A model generated the notes under the pieces. The model was not told the DNA's origin and ran no database searches. It worked only from the letters and a program-made list of their open reading frames with translations. A program made the position numbers and the translations under genes. A stretch of 40,065 nucleotides of DNA, taken from Candidatus Gastranaerophilales bacterium. GTDB taxonomy: Bacteria; Cyanobacteriota; Vampirovibrionia; Gastranaerophilales; Gastranaerophilaceae. This document shows positions 18,084 to 21,649 of this stretch, piece by piece. Within the stretch, counting starts at the first letter, position 1. Every line of letters starts with the position of its first letter. Location of the stretch: NCBI GenBank assembly GCA_016282705.1, contig JAEELO010000038.1, positions 1 to 40,065 on the forward strand, given 5' to 3'.

Positions 18084-18113
18084 TTGATGTTACAACATTA
18101 AAAAAAATATATT
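18084..18113 (+). promoter_or_regulatory. Candidate sigma-70-type promoter of the flagellar cluster
   Basis: TTGATG (18084-18089), an 18-base spacer and TATATT (18108-18113) put +1 near 18120, 26 bases before the first start codon. No sigma-28-like TAAA/GCCGATAA pattern is seen in this 230-base gap. Confidence 0.4.
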
Positions 18114-18145
18114 GTATATTTGAGGGATAGAGATTAGGGCAAGTA

Positions 18146-19357
18146 ATGACAACTTTAATTTCGGAAACAAGTAAAGAAATAAATAAAAACGGAAGTCTTT
18201 TTAATGACTTTCCTTGGTATTATTCAATTTTTTTGAAAAAGATTCAAAATTCTACAGATGACTTTTTTAGAAAAGATTTTGACCTGAGATTAATAAGCAT
18301 TTCATACGAAAAAAATATTTTGTTTTATGGCGATGAGTATTTTGTGAATAAAATAAAAATAAACAAAAATTCCTCAATAATAATAAAATTGTCATCATCA
18401 CTGGTATCTTCTATACTTGATAATACTTTAGGAATATCAAACAATAAATTTTCATTAAAAACATTAACTGATATAGAACAAAATCTTATAAATGATTTTT
18501 CTTCATATATTTATAAAAACATTGAACAATATATCAATAAAACTGAAGTTAACAGAAAAGTAATACAGAATTCCAAAGAATATAATTTTACTTTTTATAT
18601 AAAATACGGTCAAAAACACGCAGGGAAATTAATAATATCCATACCTGAATATATGTTGCCTAAAATAGAAGAAGAAAAACGCAAAGAAATATTTAATATA
18701 GATGATTTTGAATCAACATATGTAAATGTAAGTATAGGAACAGGTTCAACAAGAGTGCCGTTAACTGAAGTAAAAGCACTTGAAGAAGGAGACCTTATAG
18801 TTCTTGAAAACAGTGATATAAACAAAATGTCGGTATTATGGAACGGCAAAGAGGTAAAATTTGCCATAGCACCAAACCCTTCATTAATAATAAGCATTGA
18901 TAGTAACGGAGGCGATAAAATGGAAGACGAAACAAACACAAATTCACAGAATATGTGGGATTCTATCCTTGTTGATATTGTTGCGGAATTTGATAATGTA
19001 AAACTTTCGCTCGGTGAATTGAAACAGATATCAGAAGGTCTTGTTATTGACGTCGGTTCTGTTTACGACAATAAAATAAAGCTTAGAGTGGAAAATCAAA
19101 TTGTTGCGACAGGAGAGCTAGTAATTTTAAACGACAGGTATGCCGTAAGAATTGACAAGGTAAAAAAGAGTAAAGAAGAAGCAGCAAAACAGCCTGCGGC
19201 TAAAGTACAAAATACAGCACCGGCAAAAAAAGCCGAGCAGCCGAAAGAACAGCAAAAGAAGCTGGCAAATGTAAAAACTCCTGCAAAGAATAAAGCAGCA
19301 AAAGAAGATGAGAATTTTGATTACAGCGATTTTGAAATAGAAGATGAAAGTATATAA
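18146..19357 (+). CDS. Flagellar switch protein with FliM-like and two SpoA domains (FliM/FliN or SctQ-like)
   Basis: The product has 403 residues. Residues about 40-170 look like the middle domain of FliM/FliY (IIIKLSSSLVSSILDNTLG, then SLKTLTDIEQNLINDF). A first SpoA (C-ring) domain covers about 191-251 and a second, FliN-like, about 271-339 (VDIVAEFDNVKLSLGELKQISEGLVIDVG...VATGELVILNDRYAVRI). An Ala/Lys/acidic tail runs 340-403. In standard flagella these two SpoA domains sit in separate FliM and FliN; one chain with both is the layout of injectisome SctQ. The FliM N-terminal CheY-binding peptide (DEIDALL-like) is absent. fliO-fliP-fliQ-fliR follow with short gaps, so a flagellar role is most likely. 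An internal start at 18920 is described separately. Confidence 0.82.
   Translation: MTTLISETSKEINKNGSLFNDFPWYYSIFLKKIQNSTDDFFRKDFDLRLISISYEKNILFYGDEYFVNKIKINKNSSIIIKLSSSLVSSILDNTLGISNNKFSLKTLTDIEQNLINDFSSYIYKNIEQYINKTEVNRKVIQNSKEYNFTFYIKYGQKHAGKLIISIPEYMLPKIEEEKRKEIFNIDDFESTYVNVSIGTGSTRVPLTEVKALEEGDLIVLENSDINKMSVLWNGKEVKFAIAPNPSLIISIDSNGGDKMEDETNTNSQNMWDSILVDIVAEFDNVKLSLGELKQISEGLVIDVGSVYDNKIKLRVENQIVATGELVILNDRYAVRIDKVKKSKEEAAKQPAAKVQNTAPAKKAEQPKEQQKKLANVKTPAKNKAAKEDENFDYSDFEIEDESI
18908..18922 (+). promoter_or_regulatory. Internal ribosome binding site and ATG inside the switch-protein gene
   Basis: GGAGG (18908-18912), a 7-base spacer and ATG (18920-18922) lie in frame with the large gene, at codon 259. 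The sequence between the two SpoA domains therefore carries a full consensus Shine-Dalgarno at ideal spacing, stronger than that of most genes in the window. Confidence 0.65.
18920..19357 (+). CDS. Probable internal translation product: stand-alone FliN-like protein
   Basis: Initiation at the internal ATG would give a 145-residue protein, MEDETNTNSQNMWDSILVDI..., consisting of a short acidic lead, the second SpoA domain and the charged tail. This is the size and layout of FliN. Injectisome SctQ genes (Yersinia yscQ, Salmonella spaO) are known to make such a C-terminal SpoA product from an internal start, and the short form partners with the long one. By analogy the cell could obtain both FliM-like and FliN-like subunits from one gene. 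This is an inference from the ribosome binding site; the product has not been observed. Confidence 0.55.
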   Translation: MEDETNTNSQNMWDSILVDIVAEFDNVKLSLGELKQISEGLVIDVGSVYDNKIKLRVENQIVATGELVILNDRYAVRIDKVKKSKEEAAKQPAAKVQNTAPAKKAEQPKEQQKKLANVKTPAKNKAAKEDENFDYSDFEIEDESI

Positions 19358-19366
19358 GGATAAATT

Positions 19367-19714
19367 ATGAACAGTTACTTAACGCATTTTATTTTATACA
19401 CTTTTGCAATGATTGGGTTTATAGGTCTTGCATTATTCGTATATAAAAAGAGTGTATGTTCTTCACCGACATCTAAAGACAAAAGTTTTTTATCTGTAGA
19501 AAATTCATTGAAATTATCTGCAACAAAGACAGTATATGTAATTAAAGCAGGCAATGAAAAATTTTTAATAGCAGGTGATGCAGCTAATACAACAATGCTT
19601 GCAAAATTGGATAAAAATTCTCAATCACAAACTATTGATTATATAAATACGGAAAGAAACTTATCGGAAATTCAATCCGTAAAGAAGCAAGTACAAAGAA
19701 TAAACAGAGGATAA
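19367..19714 (+). CDS. fliO: FliO-like flagellar export assembly protein
   Basis: The product has 115 residues. A single membrane segment (about 7-28) is followed by a short cytoplasmic domain with SLKLSATKTVYVIKAGNEKFLIAGDAANTTMLAKL, the FliO pattern of L-x-x-x-K-x-V-Y-V-I-x-x-G-N-E-x-F-L-I. FliO helps assemble the FliP/FliR core and is poorly conserved. Its place immediately before fliP supports the call, and it favours a flagellar rather than an injectisome apparatus, because injectisomes lack FliO. The ribosome binding site AAGGA lies 6 bases before the ATG. Confidence 0.8.
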   Translation: MNSYLTHFILYTFAMIGFIGLALFVYKKSVCSSPTSKDKSFLSVENSLKLSATKTVYVIKAGNEKFLIAGDAANTTMLAKLDKNSQSQTIDYINTERNLSEIQSVKKQVQRINRG

Positions 19715-19715
19715 A

Positions 19716-20357
19716 ATGGATACAGTTTTAAGAGATTTAAACCCCGTACTTCAATTATTAATGGTAATGGCGATTTTTTCGTTCATACCATTTATGTTTG
19801 TATGTATGACAAGTTTTCTAAGATATGCTATAGTATTTGGTTTTTTAAAACAGGCGCTTGGAGCTCAGCAAATTCCACCGGCAATAGTACTTGTCGGATT
19901 ATCAATAATTTTAACATTCTATACAATGGGCCCTGTTTTTCAGCAAATGTATGAAGTCGGCTCCAAACCATATCAAGAAAACGGCTCAATCGTAATGGCA
20001 ATCAGTGAAGGTTCAAAACCATTAAAAGAATTTATGTTGAAGCAAACAAGAGAAGATGATTTGGCATTTTTCGTTCAACTGGCAAGAAAAGAAGCACCAA
20101 GGACTGTCGAAGAAGTAACCATTTGGGAAGTTGCACCGGCATACATTCTTAGTGAACTTAAAACCGCTTTCGAAATAAGTTTTATCGTATTTGTACCATT
20201 CATTGTTCTTGACTTGGTAATTGCGAACGTACTTCTGGCTCTTGGTATGTTTATGTTGTCGCCTACAATTATTTCGCTGCCGTTTAAACTGCTGATATTT
20301 ATTGCCGTTGACGGTTGGGGATTAATTATAAACGGTCTTGTAGGAAGTTTTAACTAG
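19716..20357 (+). CDS. fliP: Flagellar export gate protein FliP
   Basis: The product has 213 residues. The family core is clear: MTSFLRYAIVFGFLKQALGAQQIPPAIVLVGLSIILTFYTMGPV (about 32-75), the periplasmic stretch with FMLKQTREDDLAFFVQLA, and YILSELKTAFEISFIVFVPFIVLDLVIANVLLALGMFMLSP (about 148-188). FliP forms the export pore with FliQ and FliR. Many FliP proteins have a cleaved N-terminal signal sequence and about 245 residues; this one begins directly before the first membrane helix. The AGAGGAT ribosome binding site overlaps the end of fliO, and the start is 2 bases after the fliO stop, so translation is coupled. Confidence 0.93.
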   Translation: MDTVLRDLNPVLQLLMVMAIFSFIPFMFVCMTSFLRYAIVFGFLKQALGAQQIPPAIVLVGLSIILTFYTMGPVFQQMYEVGSKPYQENGSIVMAISEGSKPLKEFMLKQTREDDLAFFVQLARKEAPRTVEEVTIWEVAPAYILSELKTAFEISFIVFVPFIVLDLVIANVLLALGMFMLSPTIISLPFKLLIFIAVDGWGLIINGLVGSFN

Positions 20358-20366
20358 GATATTATT

Positions 20367-20867
20367 ATGGATATATTAATAGAATATTTCGCAAAAGGTT
20401 TAATAACAATGTTAATGATAGCAATGCCTTGTGTATTAACAGCAGCTATCATAGGTTTAATAGTCGGTATCTTACAGGCCGTAACACAGGTTCAAGAACA
20501 GACAATTGCAGCTGCACCAAAAATATTTGCAGTATTCCTTGTAATTATTATATTAGGAACAGGTTATTTAAGATTGCTCACAAATTTATTTAGTGAAGGT
20601 GCAAGCATTGCATTTAATGTAATTCCGAAAACAGATACATATGCACTCCCTCCGGACTATTATAACTACACAAAGCCATTTATTGATGAAATGAAAACAG
20701 ACATGCGAAAAGATATGACGCCGATGGCTAATATTTTGAATAATGCAGCAAGACCAAACAGTATTGCACAAAAGGAAAGATACAGTTTGACAAGAAACAG
20801 AGCAATGAATATCCCGACTCCAAACCTTGCCGAACAAAAAAGAATTAATGAAAACAGAAGAAACTAA
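20367..20867 (+). CDS. fliQ: Flagellar export protein FliQ with a long C-terminal extension
   Basis: The product has 166 residues, about twice the usual 85-90. Residues 1-85 are normal FliQ: a first membrane helix, LIVGILQAVTQVQEQTIAAAPKI and a second helix followed by LTNLF. Residues 89-166 form a hydrophilic tail rich in Asn, Arg, Pro and Lys (PPDYYNYTKPFIDEMKTDMRKD...). The extension is in frame, uses similar codons and runs up to the overlap with fliR (TAATG), so it is not a read-through artefact. FliQ is a gate component; the role of the tail is unknown, and if the C-terminus faces the cytoplasm it could contact soluble export factors (inference). Confidence 0.88.
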   Translation: MDILIEYFAKGLITMLMIAMPCVLTAAIIGLIVGILQAVTQVQEQTIAAAPKIFAVFLVIIILGTGYLRLLTNLFSEGASIAFNVIPKTDTYALPPDYYNYTKPFIDEMKTDMRKDMTPMANILNNAARPNSIAQKERYSLTRNRAMNIPTPNLAEQKRINENRRN

Positions 20868-21649
20868 TGCTTGATGTAATATTAAATGAATTTCCTAAAT
20901 ATTTTCCGGAAGTAAATAAAGTAATTGCAAGTGGACTTCCTATTTTTGCAAGGGTAATAGGACTTGTAAGAACCACACCGTTTCTACAGAGAAATGAAAT
21001 TCCCATGATTGCTAAAGTAGGCTTCGCTTTCTTATTTACAATTATGTTATCTTCGTTTTTACGTCCTGAAATTCCGCCTCAAGGCTTTTCTATAATATAT
21101 TCTATAATCATAAACTTTTTATGCGGAGCATTAATAGGATTTATAGTTAATTGTATAATTCAAGTTGTTGAATGCGGCGGTGATATGATAAATATGCAGC
21201 AAGGTGTATCTTCCGCCACGATTATGGATCCGACAACTTCATCCCAAGTTTCTATAATGGGAAGAATTTTCAGCATGCTAGGATTAATCATTTTTCTGGA
21301 AATCGGAGGTGCTTACTGGGCATTTAATGCATTTATAAGAAGTTTTGAAATATTCCCTGTATACAGTTCTTTTATTCCGTTAGACCAAATCGTAGACATG
21401 TCATATCTTATTAAAATAACGTCAAATGTTTTATATATAGGTTTACAAATAGCTTCACCTGTACTTATTGCGACATTAGGACAGGATATAATATTAGGTA
21501 TTATTTCTAAAACCGCACCGCAGGTTAACGTATTCCAAATGAGTTTCCTTTTTAAACCCTGTCTGGGTGCTGCAATCCTTCTTATAGTTATGCCTTCTAT
21601 CTTTAATGTTATTTGTGACTTCTTTTTATCATTTTCTAATATTTTTTAG
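20867..21649 (+). CDS. fliR: Flagellar export gate protein FliR
   Basis: The product has 260 residues, the normal family length, with six membrane segments. Family features include FARVIGLVRTTPFLQRNEIPMIAKVGFAFLFTIML near the N-terminus, the FNCGALIGFIVNCIIQVVECGGDMINMQQG-like central helix with VECGGDMINMQQGVSSATIMDP (about 101-122), and SPVLIATLGQDIILGIISKTAPQVNVFQMSF (about 196-226). It forms the core of the export gate with FliP and FliQ. Its ATG overlaps the fliQ stop as TAATG. flhB and flhA, which often follow, are not in the window, and no terminator is visible downstream. Confidence 0.92.
   Translation: MLDVILNEFPKYFPEVNKVIASGLPIFARVIGLVRTTPFLQRNEIPMIAKVGFAFLFTIMLSSFLRPEIPPQGFSIIYSIIINFLCGALIGFIVNCIIQVVECGGDMINMQQGVSSATIMDPTTSSQVSIMGRIFSMLGLIIFLEIGGAYWAFNAFIRSFEIFPVYSSFIPLDQIVDMSYLIKITSNVLYIGLQIASPVLIATLGQDIILGIISKTAPQVNVFQMSFLFKPCLGAAILLIVMPSIFNVICDFFLSFSNIF

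Follow-up and report, generated by a model that had tools for sequence, protein, structure and literature searches.

We describe a gene from a Candidatus Gastranaerophilales bacterium that very probably undergoes injectisome-style dual translation (SctQ/SctQC), in this case of a FliM–FliN fusion belonging to a second, motorless, rod-bearing export system of flagellar type, here termed system B. The gene lies in a window of 40,065 nucleotides (the whole stretch of DNA that was analyzed). The Gastranaerophilales are relatives of cyanobacteria that do not photosynthesize. According to the proposed mechanism, the single fusion gene would be translated from two starts in the same reading frame: ribosomes starting at 18146 would make a 403-aa scaffold with a FliM-middle-like domain and two SpoA domains (SpoA1 and SpoA2), and ribosomes binding an internal GGAGG and starting at 18920 would make a 145-aa FliN-like subunit comprising SpoA2 and the tail. 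The two forms would bind each other and assemble, probably with more of the short form than of the long, into the cytoplasmic C-ring or sorting platform of system B, which would in turn bind FliH/FliI and pass putative exported substrates to FlhA/FlhB/FliPQR. Rod proteins are present in system B, but searches of the window's genus for the motor parts FliG_C and MotB gave no match, which makes an export machine, and not an organ for motility, the likeliest reading.

The gene and its internal start site

Read directly from the window, the long-form ORF spans 18146–19357 on the forward (+) strand, as do all features given in this section, and encodes 403 aa. Within it, GGAGG at 18908–18912 is followed by the 7-base spacer CGATAAA and then by an ATG at 18920, which is in frame as codon 259, (18920 − 18146)/3 being 258; the short ORF opened there (18920–19357) encodes 145 aa and contains the second SpoA domain. 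The first-pass annotation of this DNA had called these coordinates, the frame, the codon number, the 7-base spacing, and the 145-residue product, all exactly.

The layout of the long form (18146–19357) is SctQ-like, that of a FliM–FliN fusion: a FliM-middle-like domain, SpoA1, SpoA2, and an acidic tail. The CheC/FliM-middle fold covers residues 18–179 (18197–18682), with LGISNN at the position that aligns to the FGGTG loop of FliM. Two SpoA domains in the one ORF, both over the PF01052 cut-off of 23.8, flank the internal start: SpoA1 (18707–18856) at 24.7 bits and SpoA2 (18962–19162) at 52.9 bits. The linker between them (residues 252–267, 18899–18946) contains the internal start with its Shine-Dalgarno (SD) sequence GGAGG (18908–18912), and is disordered in the structural model (pLDDT <50). 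The predicted short form (18920–19357) is FliN/SctQC-like, with SpoA2 and the tail. Common to both predicted products is the conserved acidic C-terminal motif DENFDYSDFEIEDE (19307–19348), which sits after a low-complexity linker, is present in relaxed form in 93/117 orthologues, and is a candidate docking peptide.

Upstream of the long form lies a promoter-like TTGATG-N18-TATATT (18084–18113), a pattern match only, which is no evidence by itself because the scanned stretch holds 25 such sites against 21.8 expected. Just 5′ of the long-form start, at 18132–18139, is GATTAGGG, kept in most genus sequences (one occurrence in the window versus 0.6 expected); its ATTAGGG core falls within 40 nt of the main start in 36/101 orthologues. 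RNA structure at 18880–18960 is unremarkable (z −0.48). A separate internal transcript, in place of internal initiation on the long mRNA, is a very unlikely source of the short form: a scan for sigma-70-like promoters lists no forward-strand site from 18446 to 19805 (other promoter types fall outside that scan), and such a transcript would need the SD and start even so.

Conservation of the internal start

We compiled 139 CDSs (30 loci from the window's genus, 26 from further relatives, 80 from a contig scan, and 3 from a class search) and collapsed identical 3′ 900-nt ends, which left 117 non-redundant orthologues, assigned to Gastranaerophilales by kinship or similarity; one partial gene (G018) was left out of the alignment. 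The contig-scan loci are the best 80 of at least 120 confirmed loci, from records mostly titled Candidatus Gastranaerophilales and otherwise “bacterium” or similar. A related gene (L199) comes from a record named “uncultured Acinetobacter sp.”, which we presume to be a metagenome bin under the wrong name. The SD was scored as a match to AAGGAGGT of at least 4 nt or at least 5 nt, ahead of an ATG or GTG in the inter-SpoA linker.

A linker start with an SD of at least 4 nt is kept in 115 of the 117 orthologues (103 with ATG, 12 with GTG), and 86/117 have at least 5 nt. When synonymous codons are permuted gene by gene (100 runs), the counts are 60.4 ± 4.3 (maximum 70) at the lower threshold and 33.9 ± 4.5 (maximum 44) at the higher. 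The two orthologues that fall short are L011, which has GGGGG for GGAGG, and L208, in which we found no usable internal site. Control ATGs elsewhere in the orthologous genes are preceded by at least 4 nt in 58/583 cases and by at least 5 nt in 3/583, and among the window's ORFs of at least 150 aa an SD of at least 5 nt at usable spacing occurs for 2/177 internal ATGs, the codon-259 site included. A chance SD is thus rejected by the synonymous permutation together with the control ATGs, and the site is, by these sequence counts, conserved far beyond chance.

Nor does kinship among the orthologues explain the conservation, judging by sets of representatives thinned by identity. At the 4-nt threshold the site is kept in 65/67 representatives below 70% identity (31.0 ± 3.1 when permuted), 22/23 below 50% (11.2 ± 1.8), and 8/9 below 40% (4.0 ± 1.3); at the 5-nt threshold the counts are 47/67, 13/23, and 6/9, the last equal to the permutation maximum of 6, so that the nine most distant representatives show no excess there.

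Within the window's genus the ATG is retained in 30/30 aligned sequences (the window's included) and GGAG in 29/30; six loci from the window's family that were read after the class search, and are not among the 117, also have a site. A search of the wider class gave a match in 324/382 genomes, 24 of which were re-searched for loci, and 22 loci were read. All 16 class relatives examined from outside the order have an in-frame linker ATG, against a background of 103/306 among 21-codon windows of these genes; an SD of at least 4 nt is present in only 9/16.

Selection on initiation

The signal itself takes several forms. Most sequences of the window's genus have GGAGGC...ATG and most members of one family (f3) have GGAGAT...GTG, with AAGGAGG...GTG in three of the four members of another (f6) and GAGGAGG...GTG in the single member of a third (f5); GTG thus serves as the internal start in members of three families. 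Across the orthologues, the internal start and the Trp conserved in SpoA2 lie 6 to 22 codons apart. Because the site slides and its codon changes while the linker protein changes, selection would appear to act on initiation and not on residues.

It might instead be supposed that a GG-x-x-M linker motif is conserved, by chance or at the protein level, with the SD a by-product of its Gly-Gly codons. NGG/NGD-x-x-M residues are indeed conserved within the genus, and the permuted genes still yield 60/117 because linker residues favor an SD. Outside the genus, however, the residues vary (e.g. KEDIEV, NGDDTV, and EEEDNQV) and the SD with ATG or GTG persists in another register; codon choice, moreover, surpasses all 100 permutations of the full set and all 300 of the representatives below 50% identity. 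A conserved protein motif as the cause is rejected on account of this variation of the linker under a persistent initiation signal, and we regard the explanation as a whole as extremely improbable.

The internal SD is also strong. Its mean duplex energy is −9.0 kcal/mol, with at least 4 nt matched in 115/116, compared to −4.5 kcal/mol and 19/101 for the main start of the long form (main starts here being set by a first-ATG rule, so that some may be wrong) and −5.6 kcal/mol and 70/93 for the SD of the next gene. This difference in SD strength between the internal and the main start predicts that the short form would be made in excess. Taking the sequence data together, we are highly confident that internal initiation is real.

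The short product might nonetheless be made merely as a chaperone or dispensable by-product, with the long form working alone. For the short forms of SsaQ and HrcQ, a role as chaperone has been put forward, according to the accessible portions of the injectisome literature (among PMC4295842, PMC4832279, PMC8553256, and PMC13059759). The retention of the site in nearly all orthologues and its greater strength than the main start argue against such a minor part, which we consider unlikely for system B.

Fold and family of the long form

The long form models as a FliM-middle fold followed by SpoA1 and SpoA2, that is, as a FliM–FliN fusion; the model establishes its fold, in which the FliM-middle (CheC-like) part is present. 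The FGGxG loop of FliM is FliG-binding. Relatives' FliM proteins have this loop, and it is absent here, LGISNN standing at the aligned position. The SctQ model TIGR02551 gives the long form 55.2 bits, below its cut-off of 100.8, and the gene does not reach the cut-off of the FliN NCBIfam model either. We found no other SpoA gene in the window's own draft assembly by PF01052 search. That assembly (G000) comprises 2,196,012 bases in 124 contigs and is 91.21% complete and 7.59% contaminated; because it is a draft, absences in it alone are weak, and it is the genus-wide counts that carry the argument.

Gene neighborhood and composition of system B

The window contains fliMN-fliO-P-Q-R, with fliO through fliR directly 3′ of the fusion gene and all on the forward strand: fliO (19367–19714; PF04347, 28.1 bits, cut-off 22), fliP (19716–20357; TIGR01103, 227 bits and over cut-off, with the SctR model at 196.8 and below its own), fliQ (20367–20867; PF01313, 70.8 bits over residues 5–75), and fliR (20867–21649; PF01311, 170 bits). 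The 166-aa FliQ has a C-terminal extension of ∼90 residues past the Pfam domain, and a 157-aa ORF occupies the same place in another genome (G040).

Across genomes, the gene content established from sequence includes FliE, FliF, FliH, FliI, FlhA, FlhB, FliO-R, FlgB, FlgC, FlgF/G-like rod proteins, and a lytic transglycosylase; the export-apparatus set of FlhA, FlhB, FliP, FliQ, FliR, FliI, FliH, and FliF was found in full. The operon is ordered flgF-like, flgG-like, flgB, flgC, SLT, fliE, fliF, X, fliH, flhA, fliI, with flhB located away from it. This eleven-gene run is whole, contiguous, and in the same order in 14/26 genomes with loci read, from several families; it is spread over two contigs in G000 and is partial in the other 11, by contig ends or otherwise. 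The gene fliI does not adjoin flhA in G039, G042, G044, G047, and G053. The run starts at fliE in G021 (L266) and at fliF in G008 (L270), where the rod genes and transglycosylase do not adjoin.

Flagellar models outscore injectisome models for FliP, FliQ, FliR, FlhA, FliI, and FliF. FliH of G013 gives 80.9 bits with HrpE/YscL models versus 75.6 with FliH models (NCBIfam), none over cut-off. The ring protein scores 49.8 bits with YscJ_FliF_C (cut-off 23.8), and 118.9 with fliF versus 66.5 with SctJ, both under their own cut-offs.

The protein encoded between FliF and FliH (L084:14179-15177, G000:C43) is conserved and modeled as helical, and comparison of the model with the PDB gave no match at E ≤ 0.001. 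We considered whether it is FliG: its FliG_N and FliG_M Pfam matches are below cut-off, and profile comparison with relatives' true FliG gives a probability of 2.4%, so we do not call it FliG. It is a candidate new adaptor, which would link the MS-ring to the FliM–FliN fusion. Elsewhere in the assembly, L085:7229-8692 (G000:C94:12228-13691) encodes 488 aa that include FlhA's cytoplasmic portion (PF00771 positions 321–652, 175 bits) and give no match to the membrane portion; by hand count, such FlhA-like paralogues are listed for 54/58 genomes.

System B and the flagellum

FliG_C and MotB each have no match in 35 genomes of the window's genus (the window's included). Flagellin matches occur in two of the 35, not in the window's genome: one in G003 and a partial one in the contaminated G015. 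The flagellin-like gene of G003 (L099:6833-7849, C32) encodes 338 aa, in a genome without FliG_C or MotB matches, and is either an orphan substrate or contamination. A single FliF-type match is found in 34/35 genomes of the genus and none in the remaining one, and SpoA genes in 33/35, the other two (G002 and G009) retaining FlhA and FliF.

Among the 22 order members from outside the genus, flagellin is found in 21, FliG_C in 20, MotB in 20, three SpoA matches in 20, and two FliF-type matches in 20. In most other families, system B thus stands beside a flagellum that has FliM, FliN, FlhA, and FliF of its own. The extra FliM/FliN genes of these relatives are on other contigs or far off, and adjacent where one contig has both (e.g. 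G040). One genome of another family (G047, 87% complete) has no flagellin, FliG_C, or MotB match and keeps system B. These gene counts make it improbable that the cluster is a flagellum for motility. Because the motor parts searched for (FliG_C and MotB) have no match in the genus and relatives have a paralogous flagellum, we take it to be a second, motorless, rod-bearing export system of flagellar type.

These results bear on three earlier proposals from the first-pass annotation. Its view that one gene supplies both FliM-like and FliN-like subunits gains support, as no separate fliN was found in the window's genome. Its proposed search for a separate fliN had a divided outcome: none turned up in the window's own assembly, and related families do have separate fliM and fliN, but in the other, true flagellum. 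A role as flagellar switch protein, which it had assumed, is probably to be given up in view of the genus-wide motor and flagellin counts.

The cluster could also be the remnant of a flagellum under loss, with the internal start a leftover. Published surveys (PMC3787301 and PMC4040986, in the sections available) read the flagellum-less gut Melainabacteria in this way, and the absence of FliG_C and MotB matches in the genus, its mere two flagellin matches, and the shorter operon in some genomes (G021 and G008) would fit. Yet other families have the same genes as a separate paralogous set beside a flagellum, as their paired FliF-type and triple SpoA matches indicate, and the eleven-gene run is intact and in the same order in over half of the genomes with loci read, from several families. 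System B, moreover, does not appear to be decaying, because the FlhA proteins of seven genus members are 87–92% identical to that of G013. We therefore hold a vestigial flagellum to be improbable.

Comparison with known systems

One close parallel is injectisome SctQ/SctQC (YscQ, SsaQ, Spa33, SpaO, and HrcQ). Internal starts in SctQ are described from Yersinia, Shigella, Salmonella, and Xanthomonas in the available portions of PMC4295842, PMC4832279, PMC8553256, and PMC13059759. The present gene shares with these a single ORF with two SpoA domains, an in-frame internal ATG or GTG before SpoA2, a short C-terminal SpoA2 product (here predicted), and no separate fliN found. It differs from SctQ in that its N-terminal domain models as a FliM-middle/CheC fold and in its long tail, which is of low complexity and ends in a conserved acidic stretch. 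Its surroundings differ from an injectisome as well: FliO and flagellar rod proteins are present, the ring protein does not qualify as an SctJ-type inner-ring protein, and the export components favor flagellar models, FliH being the exception.

The first-pass annotation had drawn this SctQ parallel, with an internal start giving a short SpoA subunit, and had suggested looking for GGAGG and the ATG in aligned homologues; the start with an SD of at least 4 nt in 115/117 orthologues answers that check and supports the parallel. Its further description of the locus as an intermediate between flagellar and injectisome organization is fair for architecture, but nothing here shows descent from or toward injectisomes.

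The FliM-middle fold, the SpoA domains, and the adjoining fliO-P-Q-R are likenesses to the flagellar C-ring of FliM and FliN/FliY. Unlike in that C-ring, FliM and FliN are fused and FliN is apparently re-made by an internal start; the FGGxG loop is absent, and the genus has no FliG_C or MotB match. Buchnera keeps filament-less flagellar basal bodies as export machines, and system B resembles these in having basal body genes without a filament; it differs from them in being a separate, paralogous system, present alongside a flagellum in related families.

The reduced gene sets of MEL.A1 and the koala Gastranaerophilales are probably the same genes as system B: in the available portion of PMC3787301, 12 of the 13 gene names on the published shared list match system B or the FlhA-like paralogue, the comparison covering every name on the list but flgE. 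These sets are interpreted there and in PMC4040986, as far as the available sections go, as incomplete or reduced flagella, Di Rienzi et al. seeing a mark of genome reduction in the lack of filament, cap, junction, and L/P rings in MEL.A1 (PMC3787301, same sections). A termite-gut member was judged probably motile (PMC5877343, available portion). The terms “FliM”, “FliN”, and “type III” do not occur in the main texts of PMC3787301 and PMC4040986, nor “Type III” in that of PMC5877343, and in the available sections of the first two we found no mention of a second system, a fusion, or an internal start. A search of the open literature, with subscription papers mostly outside it, turned up neither a report of system B nor, for any flagellar-type system or for this order, one of an internal start.

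Significance

As far as this literature search reaches, the mechanism is the known SctQ/SctQC one and its setting is new: in the literature found, so far as the texts were available, dual translation of a C-ring gene is known from the injectisomes of pathogens and not from flagellar-type systems. An order-wide signature of dual translation in a flagellar-type apparatus suggests that the pairing of long and short SpoA proteins tracks an export role, and not injectisome lineage alone.

The interest lies mainly in the machine around the gene. On balance, and with moderate confidence, we favor the broader proposal that Gastranaerophilales have a distinct, rod-bearing, motorless type III secretion machine of flagellar type, beside or instead of a flagellum, which is kept where the motility flagellum is missing and which carries an injectisome-like fusion with an internal FliN start. 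A gene set once read as a decaying flagellum would thereby become a candidate machine for secretion by gut commensals, with substrates that can now be searched for; if the proposal is true, the machine would add one more lineage, from such commensals, to non-flagellar type III secretion.
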